This document shows, in pieces, positions 12,167 through 22,803 of a stretch of 64,000 nucleotides of DNA (the first letter of the stretch is position 1; every line of letters starts with the position of its first letter). This stretch comes from a bacterium (lineage in GTDB: Bacteria > Bacteroidota > Bacteroidia > NS11-12g > UBA955), in assembly GCA_029945665.1 (NCBI GenBank), contig JAQSCZ010000124.1:1-64000 (forward strand), written 5' to 3'. The translations under genes were made by a program, and so were the position numbers. Below the pieces are notes generated by a model. That model did no database searches. It was not told the DNA's origin and worked only from the letters and a program-made list of their open reading frames with translations.

Positions 12167-13579
12167 ATGCTTTTTAACTCCTTGCCATTTTTAGCTTTTA
12201 TTGCCATTTTCTTTGGCATTTGGCCATTGGTAAGGAATAAAAATACTTGGCGGTGGTTATGGATTTGTTGCATGTCAATGGTCTTTTACGGTTGGTGGGA
12301 TTGGCGTTTTCTGTTCTTGCTGTTTTTTACGGGTGCCATCGATTATTTATCAGGTAAATTTATTCTGAAATTTCCCTCCCAAAAGAAATTTTGGTTGTGG
12401 CTATCTCTAGCTACTAATATAGGCTCATTGGTTATTTTTAAATACAGCGGTTGGTTAGCCAGCTTGCTTGATAGTGGTTTCGGATTGCTAAATATGCATA
12501 CTGAACTAAAAAATGCCATCCCAGAATTTACACTTGTATTACCGGTAGGTATTAGCTTCTATACATTCAATTCCATGAGTTATACCATCGATTTATACCG
12601 AGGTAAAACTAAACCGGCAGAAAATATACTTCACTTTTTTGCCTTTATTTCTTTTTTTCCTCACCTGGTTGCAGGACCAATTATTCGAGCGAAAGACATA
12701 CTTACTCAATTAACCAAACCCATACATACCAATACCGTTCAAATTTTTAATGGCATCAGAATTTGTGTTTGGGGTTTATTTCAAAAAATGGTATTAGCCG
12801 ATAATATTGCGGTACTAGTCAATGATCAATTCAACCAAGTTGGTGAACATTCTGACACCGCTCAATGGTGGTTATGCATGCTTGCATTTGCCTTTCAAAT
12901 TTACTTCGATTTTAATGGTTATAGCACCATAGCAAGAGGTATTGCCAAACTATGTGGCATCCATTTCAGGTTAAATTTTAGCCATCCCTATTTCGCAAAT
13001 TCTTTTCAAAATTTTTGGCAACGTTGGCATATCTCACTTTCAAGTTTTTTCAGGGATTATGTCTATATTTCTTTAGGTGGAAATAGAAAAGGAAAATTAA
13101 GAACGAATATTAACTTATGGATCACAATGTTACTCTCAGGTATTTGGCATGGGGCCAATTTTACATTCGTTATTTGGGGCGCTTTACATGCGTTATATTT
13201 GTCTATCGAAAGAGTTATAGTCAAACAAAATATTATCATTCACAATAAGCAATTCAAGGCCATTATAAACAGCTTAATGGTGTTTATTCCTGTGCTTGTT
13301 GCCTGGACATTTTTTAGAGCTAAGGATATGCATGAGGCCTTATATATTGTTAAGTGCTTATTCAGTTTCCATTTCGAATTAGGGATTAAAGAACTATTAA
13401 TAAGTAATGCGGTATTTTGGCTTTTTATTGGTATCATTAATGATTTTATTCTATTCAAAAGAATCAAACTCATTCGAACAAATGCACCTGTTTTTCAAGC
13501 CATATTAATAAGCTTTATAATTGCAATAATTATATTTTTTAGGGGTCCAGAACAACAATTTATTTACTTCCAATTCTAA
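12167..13579 (+). CDS. MBOAT-family O-acyltransferase (AlgI-like)
   Basis: The 470-residue polytopic inner-membrane protein belongs to the AlgI/DltB branch of membrane-bound O-acyltransferases. It is expected to move acyl groups (usually acetyl) across the membrane onto an extracytoplasmic glycan. Diagnostic segments are VLPVGISFYTFNSMSYTIDLYRG, FFPHLVAGPI, FWQRWHISLSSFFRDYVYISLGG (His 288) and LSGIWHGANFTFVIWGALH (His 328, the conserved catalytic-site His). The next gene, 7 bases downstream, encodes an SGNH-like membrane-anchored protein, the usual partner that completes transfer. The pair most likely O-acylates the polysaccharide made by the upstream block. Confidence 0.92.
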   Translation: MLFNSLPFLAFIAIFFGIWPLVRNKNTWRWLWICCMSMVFYGWWDWRFLFLLFFTGAIDYLSGKFILKFPSQKKFWLWLSLATNIGSLVIFKYSGWLASLLDSGFGLLNMHTELKNAIPEFTLVLPVGISFYTFNSMSYTIDLYRGKTKPAENILHFFAFISFFPHLVAGPIIRAKDILTQLTKPIHTNTVQIFNGIRICVWGLFQKMVLADNIAVLVNDQFNQVGEHSDTAQWWLCMLAFAFQIYFDFNGYSTIARGIAKLCGIHFRLNFSHPYFANSFQNFWQRWHISLSSFFRDYVYISLGGNRKGKLRTNINLWITMLLSGIWHGANFTFVIWGALHALYLSIERVIVKQNIIIHNKQFKAIINSLMVFIPVLVAWTFFRAKDMHEALYIVKCLFSFHFELGIKELLISNAVFWLFIGIINDFILFKRIKLIRTNAPVFQAILISFIIAIIIFFRGPEQQFIYFQF

Positions 13580-13586
13580 TATTATT

Positions 13587-14492
13587 ATGCCTAAAAATAA
13601 CAAAATAGAAGCGAGTAGATTAGGAATTATTATCAGTGTTATACTAACACCTATTGTTATTTATCTAGTTGGTATTTGTTTACCAAAATTGCCATCCTCT
13701 AAAATGTTACAGGATGCCTTTTGGGCCAATAAAATTTCTAGTTCAAAAAAATATGATATAGTCTTTGTTGGCGATTCAAGAATATATAGAGGTATTAATC
13801 CTTTAATCGTATCGAAAATTACATTCTCAAATACAGTTAATTTTGGTTTCAGCGCAGCAGGATTAGATTCTACCTTAATTTATTCCGCATCACAATTACT
13901 TAGTGTCGATGGGAAAAAGACCATGATTTTTGGTATTACACCAAGTGCATTTACACTTGAGGCAAGTAAAAATGAGCACTTTAAATCGCTCAAAAAAATA
14001 AGTAAAAAGGACCTTTGGATACGTAAACACCTATATCCTGAATTGGGTTTTTTTAATTCCTATAGCTTGTCAGAAATAAAAAAAGCAATGAACCATGAGG
14101 CATATTTTCAAGATTGTCAATCGGATGGCTTCATATATAGCAATAAGATTCCCTTCGACAGCACATCTGCTTTAGATGCGTATACTAGTTATTTTAAACA
14201 CACATCTATCAGTCAATTACAAATATCTAAATTCCTAAATATTATCAAGCAACTCCAATTAAATGGTATAAAATGTTTTGCATTTAGAGTGCCCGTTTCC
14301 TTACCAATGAATACACTCGAAAGCCAAATATTCGATTTCGAAACATTTAAAATTCAATTAGAGTTGGCTGGTGCACATTGGATGGATATTCCTCAAAAGG
14401 GTTTTAATAGTTACGATGGCAGTCACCTTACTGGACCATCAGCCAATAAACTTTCAAGGATATTAGGAGATTCAATTCTAAATTATCATTAA
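13587..14492 (+). CDS. Membrane-anchored SGNH/AlgX-like protein, MBOAT partner
   Basis: The 301-residue protein has one N-terminal membrane segment (about residues 12-32) and a periplasmic domain. It shows the two catalytic signatures of SGNH-type hydrolases and acetyltransferases: FVGDSRIYRG with Ser 64 and SYDGSHLTG with Asp 277 and His 280. The block I and block V spacing fits the fold. Directly downstream of the AlgI-like gene, it probably takes the acyl group delivered by the MBOAT and places it on the glycan. The assignment is from motifs plus context; overall similarity to AlgX or AlgJ is low. Confidence 0.72.
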   Translation: MPKNNKIEASRLGIIISVILTPIVIYLVGICLPKLPSSKMLQDAFWANKISSSKKYDIVFVGDSRIYRGINPLIVSKITFSNTVNFGFSAAGLDSTLIYSASQLLSVDGKKTMIFGITPSAFTLEASKNEHFKSLKKISKKDLWIRKHLYPELGFFNSYSLSEIKKAMNHEAYFQDCQSDGFIYSNKIPFDSTSALDAYTSYFKHTSISQLQISKFLNIIKQLQLNGIKCFAFRVPVSLPMNTLESQIFDFETFKIQLELAGAHWMDIPQKGFNSYDGSHLTGPSANKLSRILGDSILNYH

Positions 14493-14497
14493 TTTCG
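14490..14497 (+). promoter_or_regulatory. -7 promoter-like element TAATTTCG overlapping a stop codon
   Basis: The element begins on the TAA stop of the SGNH-like gene (14490-14492) and ends 6 bases before the TTG start at 14504. If used, it would give an almost leaderless mRNA for the glycosyltransferase. Confidence 0.3.
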
Positions 14498-14503
14498 CAA
14501 ACA

Positions 14504-15688
14504 TTGAAAGTCTTATTTCTTTTTGGTGGTCTTCCTCATTATTTAAATAAAGTATTAAATAAAATTAATGCTGAGCCAGCTATTGAGGTCGCAGTTATTG
14601 TCCCTTCTGGTAACAGTTTAACCTTTGGCAGTGGTGTTCACCAGAGCGATGAGGGTATTGACTTTAAAGTAATTCGATTAGTAGAATCAAAAGCCTGGTA
14701 CGGTAAACCATTTTTTAAGGCATTTTATAAAACTATCCAGTCCGAAAAACCTGATATCATTGTTACAGGTTGGCCTTATTTTTTGGCATACATTCTCAAT
14801 CCAATTCTTCTTTTTAAATTAAAAATAAAAGGGATAAAACTTTATGCAAGAGAAATTCCTTTCACAGTGCCCGGTTATCGTGAATCTTTTGCAGATTTTG
14901 AAAAACGATGTGTTGATAGTCAAAAAGATGAATTGATTTTTAAAAATAGAGCAGCCTTCTTTCTTTTAAAATTGATGAGAAGATATCTCTACACTACTGT
15001 TTTCAAAAAAGCATTGCTTTACACCGAACAAGGTGTAGAAATTATTAATTCCTATGGTATAAAAAAGGAAAATATTATTGTAACCTACAATTCACCAGAT
15101 ACTGATCAAATATTTGCTACTATAAAAGAAATAAAAGCTCAATATCCAAATATTGTAGCGAGCAGACATAGGTTGTTGCACATTGGAAGATTAGTAAAAT
15201 GGAAACATGTCGATCTTCTCATTAATGCAGTAAATGCACTTAAATCTAAATATCCAGATATAGAACTTGCCATTATTGGAAAAGGTGAAGAAGAAATAAA
15301 CTTAAAGAACCAAGTAAAAGCATTGCAAATTGAAGACCATGTTACTTTTTTAGGTGCTATTTATGAAGGCGAAGGACAAACCATTGAGTTTTTGAAATCA
15401 GAAGTTTATGTTTTGGCAGGCATGGGTGGTTTATCTATCAATGAAGCTATGGCACATGGACTTCCTGTCGTATGCTCGGTAGCAGATGGTACGGAAAAGG
15501 GCCTTGTATTCGAAGGTCAGAATGGCTTCTATTTTAAGGATAACAATTTAGAAAGTTTAGTATTTACAATCGAAAAAGTATTTGAATCTGATTTAAAATC
15601 AATGGGTGAAAAATCAAGAAAAGTTATTCAAGAAAAAATCAATTTACCATTTGTAGCTAGTCAGTTTATTAATGCACTTAAGCAATAA
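14504..15688 (+). CDS. Glycosyltransferase family 4
   Basis: The 394-residue GT-B enzyme starts with a TTG at 14504, immediately before KVLFLFGGLPHYLNKVL. The donor domain is clear: HRLLHIGRLVKWKHVDLLINAVNAL, IELAIIGKGEEE, VTFLGAI and the EAMAHGLPVVCS nucleotide-sugar binding region. It is the last gene of the polysaccharide locus and is closed by a strong hairpin at 15691-15729. The donor sugar is unknown. Confidence 0.85.
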   Translation: MKVLFLFGGLPHYLNKVLNKINAEPAIEVAVIVPSGNSLTFGSGVHQSDEGIDFKVIRLVESKAWYGKPFFKAFYKTIQSEKPDIIVTGWPYFLAYILNPILLFKLKIKGIKLYAREIPFTVPGYRESFADFEKRCVDSQKDELIFKNRAAFFLLKLMRRYLYTTVFKKALLYTEQGVEIINSYGIKKENIIVTYNSPDTDQIFATIKEIKAQYPNIVASRHRLLHIGRLVKWKHVDLLINAVNALKSKYPDIELAIIGKGEEEINLKNQVKALQIEDHVTFLGAIYEGEGQTIEFLKSEVYVLAGMGGLSINEAMAHGLPVVCSVADGTEKGLVFEGQNGFYFKDNNLESLVFTIEKVFESDLKSMGEKSRKVIQEKINLPFVASQFINALKQ

Positions 15689-17198: not shown

Positions 17199-17462
17199 CT
17201 AAGAATTCGTTGTAATTTCTTTGTTTAAATCAAAATTTCTACAATAAAAATTAGCGACATAACTTAGTGTTAAAGGCTTAACATCCAAAGTATTGCCCAT
17301 TTTATCTACAAGTACTTCAACGAAGTAATTGTAAATTGAATAGAGTTGTAATTTGAATCCTTTGGTTAAGTTAACCTCGCATACAAATAGCGATTTGTCA
17401 CTCAAGATTTGCAACCTCGAGTTGTTGTTAAAAGTGTTTAATTCAAGTTGTGTAATCAGCAT
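17199..17462 (-). CDS. Small unknown protein, 87 residues
   Basis: I do not recognise this protein. The ATG at 17462 is preferred over an upstream start at 17525 because a perfect -7 element (17496-17503) lies between them. The product is soluble and beta-rich, with a central YSIYNYFVEVLVDKMGN segment that looks like paired strands. It has two cysteines and no signal peptide. It follows the 818-residue fusion gene on the same strand and is closed by a strong terminator, so it is a real transcription unit. A nine-codon frame (17467-17493) sits just upstream in the leader. It may be co-transcribed with the fusion enzyme; function unknown. Confidence 0.6.
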   Translation of the reverse strand: MLITQLELNTFNNNSRLQILSDKSLFVCEVNLTKGFKLQLYSIYNYFVEVLVDKMGNTLDVKPLTLSYVANFYCRNFDLNKEITTNS

Positions 17463-17495
17463 TAGTTTAGTTTTGGATAGTTTTAAATTCCATAA

Positions 17496-17503
17496 CAAAA
17501 GTA
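17496..17503 (-). promoter_or_regulatory. -7 promoter element TACTTTTG
   Basis: A perfect TAnnTTTG on the - strand, 33 bases upstream of the ATG at 17462. It supports the shorter start of the small gene. Confidence 0.5.
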
Positions 17504-17546
17504 AATTAATAATTACTCTAAACAAAAATATTTTAAAATTTTACAA

Positions 17547-20003
17547 CTAATTGACAGAGTTTTCACTCTCGAAAACATTAATAATTTGATTATTAGATAT
17601 TTGCATTGACTCTATAACAGCGGCATTGAAATGGTCGTTGGATTGCATGTAAGCTACAGTCTTGAAAGATTGGGCACCCATTCTTCTTTTTTCCAAAGAT
17701 GCAGTAAATCCTAGATTAATGGATTCACAATTAAGGGAATTGGCTCTAACTAAAATTTGATAAAGTGCCTGTCTGTATACGCTAAATTCAAATTTACTTG
17801 TTTTATCAATTCCAATAAACATAGAATTATACACATCGCCTGATTTATAATTAAAGATAACTGCTACTTCTTTTAATTCTTGCTCTTCCTTCAAACAAAT
17901 AGACAATACTTCCCAATTCTGGGATTTTGCAATGTTGTAGAATAACTTTTTAGGCAAATCAAAAGTATTAAGTTTAAAACTGTTGTTTTTGACTTCATTA
18001 TACAGTTTGAACCAATGATCTGCTTGCTCAGTGGTAGGTTTCGAAATCAAATGACATTCAAAGACTGGATTAAACTTTAAAATCTGACTTCTTAAGTGGT
18101 ATCTTGATTTATAGGAAAGAGTGCTAACAAACTCCTCTTCTGTTTTCCAACCTAAATTACTGTGAGTATTACGTTCAGGCATTTGAGTTTTAAAATAACC
18201 ATTGCCGAGCATCATTTTATCCAATTCTGCATTACCATCGTCAAAGTCTCTTAACATTATAGAACTGGCATTGTACTTTTTCATGAGAGAAGAGGCCATC
18301 CAATACATCTCATTAAATGCTTGCTTTTTATGGCTACTTTTTTCATTTACGAAAACATGATTACCCTCCGTCAAAAGAGAACCTGTCATCACCATTTTTG
18401 ATGTTAAGTAATAAGGGTCGCTTGTTTTTCTGATCATTTCTATTTTATGTGATATGGTTTCATGCGAAAGCATATCATCTTTACAGAGTGCGGTGGTGAA
18501 AAAAGTGGCTAAAACAACATTCTTATTTTTATCTCTAATTATCAAATAATCAAATTCCCAATTGTCTTGAGCCAATTTATTGTTTCTAAAAGTGTCTTCT
18601 AAAAATAATAAACCAATGTAGTCAAAGCTACCTTTGCCTTCGAATATTCTATTCCATTCAGTTTTGTCAATTTCAGTAATTGTTTGATATTTCTCTAGAA
18701 TCAAATTAGAAGGCTTAAGAATAGGTTGGAATGTATCCTCATTATTCGTTTCACCTGGAATATCAATTTTAAATGCTTTATAAATTTGATCTCTAGAAAT
18801 ATTTTGTTCTAACAAAACTTCATCAAAATGACGTGCCATTGAAGTTATCATTCCTTCAATTTGTTTGAAAGTATGCAACCGAGTGATCGTAAATCTTACA
18901 CCAGTATTTTTCATCGGAACTGCGGGAAAAGCACCAAGATTTGTGTAATATCCATCATCAAGCATTTTCTTTATCAATTGGTAACCTACCTTAGGCAAAC
19001 AAACCCCTATAAAGAAAACCGGAGAATTTAATTCCTTAATAAGCGGTAAACCCACTTTCTTAATCATTAAATTAGCATATTTGATATTTTCTTGAAGGTC
19101 CTCTTGCATTTTAATGATATCTTTTGATAAGTGAATATCTGCCGCAGCTAATGCAGCACCCAAAGCCGCTGGCTGCATAGGTCCGGAGGTAATCATGGGT
19201 CCACCACACGTTCTAACCAAACTCGCCATCTTTTCATTTGGAAAAATCATAGCACCACCCCCACTAGCAAAAGCTTTATTTAGACTGGTTGTTAAAACCA
19301 TTCTTTCATGCAAATCGTGATTTTGAAGTACAAATCCTCTACCATTTTTTCCAAAACAACTCATTCCATGCGCATCATCAACATAAAAATGAAACTTTGG
19401 AAACTTATCTAACAATTCATAAATAGCATCTATAGGACTACCATCGCCATACATCGAATAAATACCATCAGCCATATACCACACCTTTTCGTATTTTTTG
19501 CTGAGTTGAATAATTCTTTCTTCTAACAAATCCATTCTATTATGTCTTAATAATTCAATATGAATTCCTTTAGGTTTTAATAAAGTGGTTGCGGTTTGAA
19601 TAGAGCTATGCACTTGGTGATCTAAAATAACAGCATCTTTTTCACCTATAATTACTGGTATTGTTGAAATGTGACCCAAAGTTGTTGTAGGAGTTACTAC
19701 ACAATAACCACCAAACAAAGCATTCAATTTTTTTTCCAGTTGCTCATAGTGAATGGATGAAAGATAGGCTCTTGAAGCGGAAAATTGGGTACCATAACCT
19801 TCTAGGGCTTTGATTGCACCCGCTTTTAAACGGGGATCAAATTCTAAGCCTAAATAACTACAAGAACTAAAATTAACAAGTTCCTTATCATTAATTTTCA
19901 GCATGTTGCCTTCTAAGATTTCGTTCGAAACATTTAGATGAAGAATACCGCTGTTCTTACCATCAGTAATCACATCATTGATGGTAGTAATAAAATTGTT
20001 CAT
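17547..20003 (-). CDS. Fusion of PLP-dependent alpha-oxoamine-synthase-like enzyme with GNAT/BioF2-like acyltransferase
   Basis: The protein has 818 residues and two enzymes in one chain. Residues ~1-400 are a fold-type I PLP enzyme of the alpha-oxoamine synthase group (8-amino-7-oxononanoate synthase, 2-amino-3-ketobutyrate CoA ligase, serine palmitoyltransferase). The cofactor residues are visible: ADGIYSMYGDGSP (Asp 179), VDDAHG (Asp 210, His 212) and TTSLNKAFASGGG (Lys 243, the Schiff-base lysine). Such enzymes condense an amino acid with an acyl thioester. Residues ~430-800 form two GNAT-like lobes of the BioF2/FemX type, with YLTSKMVMTG and the later FNYKSGDVYNSMFIGID. The architecture suggests formation of a sphingoid- or capnine-like amino product followed by acylation, but substrate is inference. 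It stands alone upstream of a small gene. Confidence 0.8.
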   Translation of the reverse strand: MNNFITTINDVITDGKNSGILHLNVSNEILEGNMLKINDKELVNFSSCSYLGLEFDPRLKAGAIKALEGYGTQFSASRAYLSSIHYEQLEKKLNALFGGYCVVTPTTTLGHISTIPVIIGEKDAVILDHQVHSSIQTATTLLKPKGIHIELLRHNRMDLLEERIIQLSKKYEKVWYMADGIYSMYGDGSPIDAIYELLDKFPKFHFYVDDAHGMSCFGKNGRGFVLQNHDLHERMVLTTSLNKAFASGGGAMIFPNEKMASLVRTCGGPMITSGPMQPAALGAALAAADIHLSKDIIKMQEDLQENIKYANLMIKKVGLPLIKELNSPVFFIGVCLPKVGYQLIKKMLDDGYYTNLGAFPAVPMKNTGVRFTITRLHTFKQIEGMITSMARHFDEVLLEQNISRDQIYKAFKIDIPGETNNEDTFQPILKPSNLILEKYQTITEIDKTEWNRIFEGKGSFDYIGLLFLEDTFRNNKLAQDNWEFDYLIIRDKNKNVVLATFFTTALCKDDMLSHETISHKIEMIRKTSDPYYLTSKMVMTGSLLTEGNHVFVNEKSSHKKQAFNEMYWMASSLMKKYNASSIMLRDFDDGNAELDKMMLGNGYFKTQMPERNTHSNLGWKTEEEFVSTLSYKSRYHLRSQILKFNPVFECHLISKPTTEQADHWFKLYNEVKNNSFKLNTFDLPKKLFYNIAKSQNWEVLSICLKEEQELKEVAVIFNYKSGDVYNSMFIGIDKTSKFEFSVYRQALYQILVRANSLNCESINLGFTASLEKRRMGAQSFKTVAYMQSNDHFNAAVIESMQISNNQIINVFESENSVN

Positions 20004-20263
20004 AACTTATGGATAATTAATAATTAGTACAAAGATGGGGGTTTATAACCAATAAACAAATAGTTTTCAACATTTTTTAGTACTTTTTTACCAATCATTT
20101 ATGTTTTTTTAACGTAAGAATATGAAAATAAACAAATTAAAGGTCAAAAAAATTTTATGAATTGTAATTGACTGTTTTATATGGCTTTAATTAATTTTTT
20201 ACGTCACTTTTGAAATGTTATTATCTACAAAATATACAAATAGGCAAAAAGCATAATAGCCGC

Positions 20264-20513: not shown

Positions 20514-20900
20514 ATGACCAAAGCTATGGAAATTTATGAAAATCAACAGATTAAGATGGAAATTATAGATGGCATCTTATTTGCCAACTACAAGGCAGGG
20601 CTGAAAATTACCTTAAGCGATGCCAAAAATATCGTTAGTGAGAGGTTAAATCTTTTAAATGGAAAAGTTTTACCTACACTTGTTATAGATGGAGGTGTTG
20701 TTAGTATGGACAAGGCCGCTCGGGACTATTTTTCCTCTATAGAAGGGACAAGTGGTCTTAAATCTGTTGCAATTGTAGAAAATTCATTTTTTAGCAAAAT
20801 GCTAATTAATTTTTTTATGAGAATTACAAACACCTCGATAAAAGTCAAGGCCTTCAGTAACGCCAATGAAGCATTAGATTGGCTTAAGAAGGATATTTAA
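20514..20900 (+). CDS. STAS/SpoIIAA-like domain protein
   Basis: The ATG at 20514 (or 20526) follows the -7 element, giving about 128 residues. The predicted pattern is alternating strands and helices: MEIIDGILFANYKAG, a helix with LSDAKNIVSERL, the strand PTLVIDGGVV, and a C-terminal AFSNANEALDWLKKD that matches the last helix of SpoIIAA-like/STAS proteins. It has no membrane segment. STAS proteins act as phosphorylation-sensitive protein-binding switches or lipid binders. The gene lies 24 bases before a histidine kinase and a response regulator, so it probably modulates that pathway. The usual phospho-serine motif is not evident. Confidence 0.6.
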   Translation: MTKAMEIYENQQIKMEIIDGILFANYKAGLKITLSDAKNIVSERLNLLNGKVLPTLVIDGGVVSMDKAARDYFSSIEGTSGLKSVAIVENSFFSKMLINFFMRITNTSIKVKAFSNANEALDWLKKDI

Positions 20901-20924: not shown

Positions 20925-22082
20925 TTGAAAGACCTAAATAATTATGAATTCGATGAGCGCTTCATGCAGCTCGAAGATGTATTGCTGGCGTATTCCCATG
21001 GCGATTTTTCCAAAAAACTTCCGATCTCCGATAAATTAGACCCGATTGATACGGTGATGTCAGGAATTAATATGTTAGGTGAGGAGCTTGAAGAAACAAC
21101 GATTAAAAGAGATTTCTTTAACTCAGCGTTTCATTCAATTACCGATAGTCTAGTTGTAATTAATAATTCAGGTATTATTATCGATCTTAATGAAAGTTTT
21201 ATTTGTTTACTTGAATTGCAAAAGGAAGATATAATTGGTAAAAACTTAACGACTTTCTTGAAGTTTAAAAGTTTTGAAAAGACCATTCAATCACTTTACA
21301 AAAATCAAAAAACGATTGACTTTGAATCAGAAATTCAAACGTCATTAGACAAGAAAATCATGGTTGAGTGCCATGTTTCAGTTATTGATAATAACAAATG
21401 CCATTCATTGGTTAAAATCCATGATTTAACATATAAAATCCAACAAGAAGCGTCCCGTATTGCAACAATTATTAAAACACAGGAGGAAGAAAGAAATAGA
21501 GTAGCATCAGACTTACATGATAGTATAGGTCAGCAAATATCAGCTCTTAAATTTTATTTCGACTCTATACAAAAGCAAAAAGATGATAAGCTGAGAACCG
21601 TGTTGTTAAAAAAGACAGAATCATTAATTGACAATGTTGCAGATGAGATTAGGAACATTTGTTTTCAATTAATGCCGAGATCTGTTGAAAAATTTGGGTT
21701 GTCAGATTCAATCAAACAATTGGCTGATATTATTCAGTTTAGCACTGGTATTCATTTTGATTTAAAATTGGTGGAATCGAAAATTAAAATCGATTCAAAT
21801 ATTTCAATGTCTGTATATCGAATTATTCAAGAGTTTGTGAATAATTCAATAAAACATGCAAAATGTAAAAATATTAAGATCAATTTCGAAGTTAAACCTA
21901 AAATTTTAACCTTAACGATGATTGACGACGGGGTAGGATTTGGAGAATCTTCTAGTAAACGAAAAGGGAATGGCCTGGATAACATAAATTTAAGAGTAAA
22001 ATACTTGAACGGAGAAGTCGAATTTATTTCAGAAAAAGATAAGGGTGTTATATTGAATATTAGCATACCTTTGAACAGTTAA
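20925..22082 (+). CDS. Cytoplasmic NarL-type sensor histidine kinase with PAS domain
   Basis: The 385-residue protein has no membrane span, so it senses an internal signal. Residues ~1-60 (with LAYSHGDFSKKLPISDKLDPIDTVM, HAMP-like) precede a PAS domain at ~65-170 (SITDSLVVINNSGIIIDLNESF). The dimerisation/phosphoacceptor domain is HisKA_3, EEERNRVASDLHDSIGQQISAL, with His 198 as phosphosite. The ATPase domain shows IIQEFVNNSIKHAK (N box) and MIDDGVGFG (G1 box). The TTG at 20925 is the only start that fits. It is followed after four bases by its response regulator. The ligand bound by the PAS domain is unknown. Confidence 0.9.
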   Translation: MKDLNNYEFDERFMQLEDVLLAYSHGDFSKKLPISDKLDPIDTVMSGINMLGEELEETTIKRDFFNSAFHSITDSLVVINNSGIIIDLNESFICLLELQKEDIIGKNLTTFLKFKSFEKTIQSLYKNQKTIDFESEIQTSLDKKIMVECHVSVIDNNKCHSLVKIHDLTYKIQQEASRIATIIKTQEEERNRVASDLHDSIGQQISALKFYFDSIQKQKDDKLRTVLLKKTESLIDNVADEIRNICFQLMPRSVEKFGLSDSIKQLADIIQFSTGIHFDLKLVESKIKIDSNISMSVYRIIQEFVNNSIKHAKCKNIKINFEVKPKILTLTMIDDGVGFGESSSKRKGNGLDNINLRVKYLNGEVEFISEKDKGVILNISIPLNS

Positions 22083-22086
22083 CATT

Positions 22087-22803
22087 ATGCAAAAACTAGT
22101 TAAAATATTAATCGTAGATGACCATCCCATGATTAGAGATGGTTTAAAAACCATGCTTGAAATTGGATGTGATGACATGGTTTTCAAGGTATTTGATTGC
22201 GACAATACAGAAGAAGCAGTTGAATTTCTTAAAAATGAAAAAATGAAAGTGGCCTTGGTTGACTATCAATTAATTGATTTAGATGGTGCTTTAGTAACCG
22301 CTGCTCTGATGGAAGTGAATCCTAAAATTAATATTTTAGGTATTTCAAACTACAATGAAATCAACCACATTCATGATATGCTTAAAGCAGGTGCCAGAGG
22401 CTATACCTTAAAAAATATTTCATCAGAAAATTTATTTAATGGTATCAAAATATTATTGAATGGTGGTACCTTCTTTTCTCCCGAAGTTGCGCATCTTCTA
22501 GCTAATCAATACTACAAAAAGCTAACGGAAAAATCAGGTAAAAAGAAAGGTCCTAATTTTATTAGTAATTCAGATCAATTAGATGGTAATGAGCTTTTAG
22601 ATAGATTATCCAAAAGAGAAATTGAAATTCTAACTTGTATTGCCAATGAAATGACCAATGAAGAAATCGCTGTTAAACTAGAATTGAGTAAAAGAACTGT
22701 CGATAACCACCGTCAAAATATGCTTAATAAATTAAAAGTTAAAAATTCTATGGGATTATTGCTCATAGCAATGAAGGCTGGTTTATTAGAGTATAAAAAA
22801 TAG
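22087..22803 (+). CDS. NarL/FixJ-family response regulator
   Basis: The 238-residue regulator has a receiver domain at ~5-120 with Asp 11/Asp 12, phosphoacceptor Asp 59 (VALVDYQ), Ser 87 and Lys 109 (YTLKNIS). A LuxR-type helix-turn-helix at ~175-235 reads LSKREIEILTCIANEMTNEEIA and then LSKRTVDNHRQNMLNKL. The linker between is longer than average and lysine-rich. It is the partner of the kinase four bases upstream and should bind DNA as a phosphorylated dimer. Targets are unknown. A palindrome follows the gene at 22834-22870. Confidence 0.93.
   Translation: MQKLVKILIVDDHPMIRDGLKTMLEIGCDDMVFKVFDCDNTEEAVEFLKNEKMKVALVDYQLIDLDGALVTAALMEVNPKINILGISNYNEINHIHDMLKAGARGYTLKNISSENLFNGIKILLNGGTFFSPEVAHLLANQYYKKLTEKSGKKKGPNFISNSDQLDGNELLDRLSKREIEILTCIANEMTNEEIAVKLELSKRTVDNHRQNMLNKLKVKNSMGLLLIAMKAGLLEYKK

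Follow-up and report, generated by a model that had tools for sequence, protein, structure and literature searches.

The window, a stretch of 64,000 nucleotides of contig JAQSCZ010000124.1 from a freshwater Bacteroidota bacterium (GenBank assembly GCA_029945665.1), carries on its reverse strand a single open frame (17547-20003) for a protein of 818 aa, in which an alpha-oxoamine synthase (AONS) domain (residues ~1-400) is joined through a linker (~400-432) to a tandem GNAT domain (~433-805). Its probable promoter, TTTG-N19-CATCTTTG, lies on the same strand at 20030-20060 and has one mismatch. Downstream of the fusion gene, and separated from it by 84 bp, the same strand carries a gene for an 87-aa protein with an alpha/beta fold (17199-17462). 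This small gene is preceded by an exact Bacteroidota consensus promoter, TTTG-N19-TACTTTTG (17496-17526, reverse strand), which ends 33 bp upstream of the ATG at 17462. Since the promoter falls inside the longer frame that opens at an upstream TTG, we place the start of the small gene at this ATG. Motifs of this type are expected by chance ~5.6 times per window (both strands) and ~0.004 times in the spacer between the two genes. Furthermore, the small-gene promoter is kept, with a spacing of 19-20 bp, in all eight relatives whose spacer is long enough, and also in the fusion-less sister genome G007 described below. No terminator was predicted between the fusion and the small gene, and an intrinsic terminator with an 11-bp stem and a T tract (17171-17146, reverse strand), located downstream of the small gene, is common to both in the window. 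A small gene with a promoter of its own and a terminator in common with the fusion is what the preliminary description had proposed, and the sequence features agree with it. The spacer measures 20 bp in two congeners and the genes overlap at loci L023 and L071, so that the two genes probably form one operon there.

Divergent from the fusion, the forward strand encodes a DUF7793 (SpoIIAA/STAS-like) protein (20514-20900), a PAS-HisKA_3-HATPase histidine kinase (20964-22082; the frame is open from the TTG at 20925) and, beside the kinase, a NarL/LuxR-type response regulator (22087-22803). The kinase is cytoplasmic, with no transmembrane segment detected. Elsewhere in the window (12167-15688), a gene for an MBOAT acyltransferase is followed by genes for a 301-aa protein without a family match and a glycosyltransferase, which looks like a set for polysaccharide O-acylation.

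The two halves of the fusion protein

An intact alpha-oxoamine synthase and a double GNAT-like acyltransferase had been described on one chain, and both parts of this description hold. The AONS half matches Pfam Aminotran_1_2 (E=1.3e-19), and the solved structures nearest to it are Alb29, SPT and KBL. Across 46 full-length homologues, residues H132, D179, D210, H212, K243 and R370 are invariant, including the four that had been named at the outset (Asp 179, Asp 210, His 212 and Lys 243); the fusion hence has the PLP lysine together with both aspartates and the conserved histidines of the AONS superfamily. The GNAT half likewise has invariant residues in these homologues (R585, E771 and K772), which indicates that selection acts on both halves, and the conservation of both at 33-50% identity argues for activity of each. 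The fusion protein has no predicted transmembrane segment.

The sequence of the GNAT half is very divergent. Pfam Acetyltransf_6 (PF13480) scores 11.7 bits in the window protein, below the threshold of 22, and barely exceeds the threshold in two homologues, while a sequence comparison of this half with the PDB gave zero matches. In the AlphaFold model (mean pLDDT 86, pTM 0.82), this half adopts a tandem GNAT fold, and the top Foldseek matches, with E values from 5e-11 to 1e-8, are FemX (the best, E=5e-11), FemA, the aminoacyl-tRNA-dependent Sba18/Sbb17 (TM up to 0.68 by target length) and MprF-type domains. The acetyl-CoA loop motif is missing from 46 of the 48 GNAT halves, and the combination of a tandem GNAT fold with the lack of this loop is that of the FemABX proteins. 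The model thus suggests a FemX-like domain closest to the aminoacyl-tRNA-dependent transferases. Other acyl donors may also fit, since the acetyl-CoA-dependent tandem GNAT from the clavulanic acid cluster matches the model as well, as do N-myristoyltransferases. With FemX/FemA and Sba18/Sbb17 the GNAT half also appears to have in common a conserved lysine by a C-terminal motif, for which equivalence to K772 is suggested. It differs from them in being only ~10-12% identical, in being joined to a PLP enzyme and in the absence of a match of the window protein to the FemAB families (PF02388/PF04339); in the homologue at L178, PF04339 reaches 19.5 bits against a cut-off of 27. Separately, a stand-alone family of ~380-aa tandem-GNAT-like proteins, distant kin of the GNAT half, occurs in Bacteroidota (L063-L070), and its genes often adjoin a gene for a ~160-aa membrane protein.

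Membrane lipids and the ancestry of the fusion

The preliminary description had assigned to the fusion a ceramide- or sulfonolipid-like membrane lipid made by one protein. In favor of this idea, an AONS with an N-acyltransferase gives the right order of reactions, one of the nearer solved relatives is SPT, and the alanine or glycine that the fusions mostly carry at the position of SulA Lys281 resembles SPT, which has alanine there. The genome of the window, however, has genes for two other oxoamine synthases. One is a glycine C-acetyltransferase (TIGR01822, above cut-off) and the other, encoded by a separate gene, an orthologue of SulA/CfAT (PDB 7u7h, E=2e-181; 28eh, E=2e-175). SulA has been shown to catalyse the first step of sulfonolipid synthesis in Alistipes, and its Lys281 closes the active site (PMC9304779). 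This diagnostic lysine is retained by the SulA orthologue of the genome, whereas the fusion in the window has Gly274 at this position and the 46 homologues have Ala (35), Gly (9), Ile (1) or Val (1). In addition, the fusion stays below all family cut-offs tested and far below those of SPT, KBL and BioF. It scores 164 bits against the cut-off of 640 for the Bacteroidota SPT family (NF047600) and 79 against 428 for the CqsA/LqsA type (NF005526), its best result being 252 against 342 bits for PRK07505.

In the phylogenetic tree, the fused sequences fall into one clade (33 rows, support 100/99) with few unfused rows nested inside, for which one fusion event followed by later losses is the simplest history. 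The SulA, SPT and KBL rows lie outside the clade that contains all fused and unfused relatives (support 100/100); because of long branches, it is uncertain where precisely SulA belongs. The sister clade holds Alb29 of Streptomyces and plasmid-borne PRK07505-type enzymes. Our search of plasmids returned single-domain AONS proteins only, at ~30% identity; on a colicin-carrying E. coli plasmid (NZ_CP075653.1, L108), a PRK07505-type single-domain synthase gene lies beside a gene for an MFS transporter. An apparent split AONS and GNAT operon in genome G018 was discarded, as its break adjoins runs of N.

The fusion is sporadic. It was found in 11 of the 17 genomes of its own genus and in other members of the family, and not in six of these 17 congeners, one of which is 98% complete. 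Outside its own family, the 396 sampled genomes of the phylum yielded relatives only from family f6, which we infer from gene content to be Flavobacteriaceae-type, and, in unfused form, from family f7. In f6 the fusion is present in 34 of 301 genomes and 30 genera; in f7 it occurs together with unfused forms.

On the basis of the separate SulA, the scores against family cut-offs, the residue at the Lys281 position and the tree, we rejected an assignment as a sulfonolipid enzyme or SPT. A lipid product of the ceramide or sulfonolipid kind is further disfavored by the sporadic occurrence of the fusion, its frequent carriage on mobile, often conjugative, elements, its lack of a transmembrane segment, the resemblance of its GNAT half to FemX-type enzymes and its pairing with sensor and regulator genes, and we regard it as unlikely. 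The fusion is like SulA in PLP fold and reaction class, and differs in the Gly/Ala in place of Lys281, the distant clade, the fused GNAT domain and the sporadic occurrence. With the SPT of Sphingobacterium (NF047600, 3a2b), it has the catalytic residues and a similarity of ~115 bits in common, but it is far under the family cut-off and outside the SPT clade. The closest AONS subfamily is that of the PRK07505-type enzymes and Alb29 (PDB 8xha), which differ from the fusion in being single-domain products of natural-product or plasmid genes that lack the DUF7793 pairing.

Linkage to regulator genes and mobile elements

In the own family of the fusion, all seven loci have DUF7793 in divergent orientation, followed by the PAS histidine kinase and the NarL-type response regulator, with the small gene downstream of the fusion. 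The same divergent DUF7793 is found in 39 of 41 loci of f6, where a PAS-AraC regulator lies no more than three genes from the fusion in 39 of 41 loci. Eight of the f6 loci had been used to build the search profiles, and among the 33 independent loci DUF7793 is present in 31. In two families, DUF7793 is therefore the constant partner that diverges from the fusion, while the type of the partner regulator varies (histidine kinase with response regulator, or AraC) and its N-terminal PAS part stays related. The small gene, by comparison, was found in the own genus and in two related genomes and is absent from the other families examined, f6 and f7; its structural model gave no match with an E value below 0.1 against the PDB and hence no confident structural match. 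In G007, which is 98% complete, the response regulator, the kinase, DUF7793, the small-gene promoter and the small gene follow one another in order with the fusion gone from between DUF7793 and the small gene (L094, G007:C35, 6454-9450), the promoter being intact, and no copy of the fusion was found elsewhere in this genome. The fusion is thus not always accompanied by the small gene downstream, and we rejected the latter as an obligate partner: the real partner of the fusion is DUF7793 with the PAS regulator. G007 also demonstrates that the regulator does not need the fusion; either the regulator and the small gene are useful without the enzyme, or G007 is only a listener. DUF7793 itself is multi-copy in the genus, with six copies in G000 (C8, C12, C17 and C65; L100-L103), one of which (L101) lies immediately before the genes for a 7TM/PAS kinase of 978 aa and a CheY-like protein.

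The linkage takes another form in f7. Neither DUF7793 nor the PAS regulator adjoins any of the 11 fused loci of this family, and synthases of the clade are flanked in 9 of 36 loci by a histidine kinase whose N-terminal region has five or six hydrophobic segments; for other genes the count is 3 of 310 (Fisher p=1.9e-5). Eight of the nine kinase-flanked synthases are unfused and one is a 612-aa form; in six of the nine loci the kinase gene is directly downstream on the same strand. A synthase with a six-TM kinase of this kind is the layout of CqsA/CqsS. A gene for a ~830-aa histidine kinase on one side and apparent menaquinone (men) genes on the other flank the secondarily unfused synthases of L196 and L199.

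Two further explanations bear on these loci. The first is that the fusion makes a specialised metabolite, such as an antimicrobial, a metal ligand or a similar N-acyl aminoketone with a role outside the cell, and that DUF7793 and the PAS regulator only switch production on. The patchy occurrence in f6, a location on conjugative elements with a regulator of its own, and the sister clade, in which one plasmid-borne enzyme lies beside an MFS transporter, are consistent with this. On the other hand, the only genes conserved next to the fusion encode regulators, with none for a transporter, a carrier protein or tailoring among them, and six-TM kinases pair with the unfused relatives. We therefore hold this explanation to be possible but rather doubtful. 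The second is that DUF7793 and the PAS regulator control the enzyme but have no functional tie to it, the whole f6 set being a control module of conjugative elements that acts via RteC, with a product that serves the element otherwise. Indeed, RteC is directly downstream of the fusion in 30 of 41 f6 loci, TraG (TIGR03783, above the curated cut-off) is 5.7 kb away from the fusion in L162 and ~17-25 kb away in G355, G059 and G141, which places the f6 locus on conjugative elements at least there, and regulators persist in G007 in the absence of the enzyme. Yet the locus of the own genus is chromosomal, beside the clpP/clpX genes, and the window genome has no RteC, although DUF7793 and the PAS regulator are present. 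For the own genus we therefore rejected a general rule that the locus is cargo of conjugative elements, and we consider the second explanation very improbable.

Two further observations stand apart. At L062 (G095:C1, 8933-11360), the fusion is split into 637 and 187 aa, the sole clear pseudogene-like copy seen, and the DUF7793, PAS-AraC and RteC neighbors are intact. In the f6 loci L055-L060, L104 and L149-L177, the DUF7793 and PAS-AraC genes continue into MauE-like and DUF6520 small-peptide genes, adjoined by genes for an S9 or other peptidase and SusC/SusD-like proteins; this stretch looks like a separate recurring cassette.

A candidate signal synthase and its known counterparts

The relatives of the fusion, spread over many genera, adjoin sensor or regulator genes and often lie on mobile elements, so that its product is probably a small signalling or specialised compound and not a membrane lipid of the ordinary kind. 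That it is a regulator-paired synthase is well supported. Going further, we tentatively propose a bifunctional enzyme for an N-acylated, perhaps aminoacylated, aminoketone that signals to the paired regulator. As judged from the invariant catalytic set, the PLP domain would join an amino acid to an acyl thioester in a condensation that releases CO2, giving an alpha-aminoketone. The FemX-type tandem GNAT domain would then acylate the free amine before it escapes or condenses with itself, and its fold makes an aminoacyl group the likelier one. This order of aminoketone formation and N-acylation had been put forward in the preliminary description, and it remains plausible chemistry for a protein of this sequence. 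If the donor were an aminoacyl-tRNA, the product would be an N-aminoacyl aminoketone, which might, as a matter of speculation, cyclise to a pyrazinone, and the gene context suggests that the product or such a cyclised form could be the signal for the paired regulator. The reader would here be the divergent DUF7793 with the PAS kinase and the NarL-type regulator, and elsewhere the PAS-AraC protein or, for the unfused relatives, a six-TM kinase.

A signal role draws on the DUF7793 and PAS regulator linkage in the own family and in f6, and on the six-TM kinases of f7. Against it count G007, in which the regulators and the small gene persist in the absence of the fusion, the cytoplasmic window kinase, which in this is unlike CqsS, the 11 fused f7 loci that lack DUF7793 and the PAS regulator, and L178 and L179, in which the fusion stands alone; moreover, a regulator near an enzyme gene also fits a simple biosynthetic locus. 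A signal role is nevertheless the best single explanation, at somewhat less than an even chance. The most specific version, a one-protein autoinducer synthase of Bacteroidota that combines an AONS-made aminoketone with an aminoacyl-tRNA-dependent FemX-like step, sensing by DUF7793 and the PAS regulator, and RteC-mediated control of transfer in Flavobacteriaceae-type hosts, is in its entirety improbable.

The locus is present in about one in nine of the sampled genomes of f6, a large family, repeatedly beside the RteC switch of conjugative elements. If the signal role is true, it would be a concrete candidate, open to testing, for communication between cells and for control of gene transfer by a signal in Bacteroidota. 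The protein would also be a rare natural case of a C-C bond-forming PLP enzyme fused to a FemX-like enzyme that forms amides, which could be useful in biocatalysis. The literature searched contained nothing on point for the AONS/GNAT fusion, the RteC linkage or the function of PRK07505, and no autoinducer-synthase/sensor pair of this kind from Bacteroidota.

Among known systems, the proposed scheme can be likened to the synthase-sensor pairs of alpha-hydroxyketone signalling, CqsA/CqsS and LqsA/LqsS, without membership of the fusion in the CqsA/LqsA family. CqsS is a 6TM receptor, and the cluster of CqsS-like 6TM kinases includes Bacteroidota (PMC4821796); the Lqs system follows the CqsA/CqsS logic (PMC5289986). 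As in these systems, a PLP enzyme of the oxoamine-synthase fold is encoded beside genes for a sensor kinase and response regulator, both in the window (20964-22803) and, with the six-TM kinase directly downstream of unfused relatives, in f7. The fusion differs from CqsA and LqsA in its low NF005526 score and its extra tandem-GNAT domain, and the fused lineages differ with respect to CqsS in having a cytoplasmic PAS kinase, as in the window, or PAS-AraC. Lastly, N-aminoacyl aminoketones are known to cyclise to pyrazinone autoinducers (PMC12930378), and pyrazinones of the DPO/AI-3 type would resemble the product hypothesised here in having such a precursor that cyclises. They are made by Tdh and promiscuous adenylating enzymes, whereas for the present locus we hypothesise a dedicated fusion.
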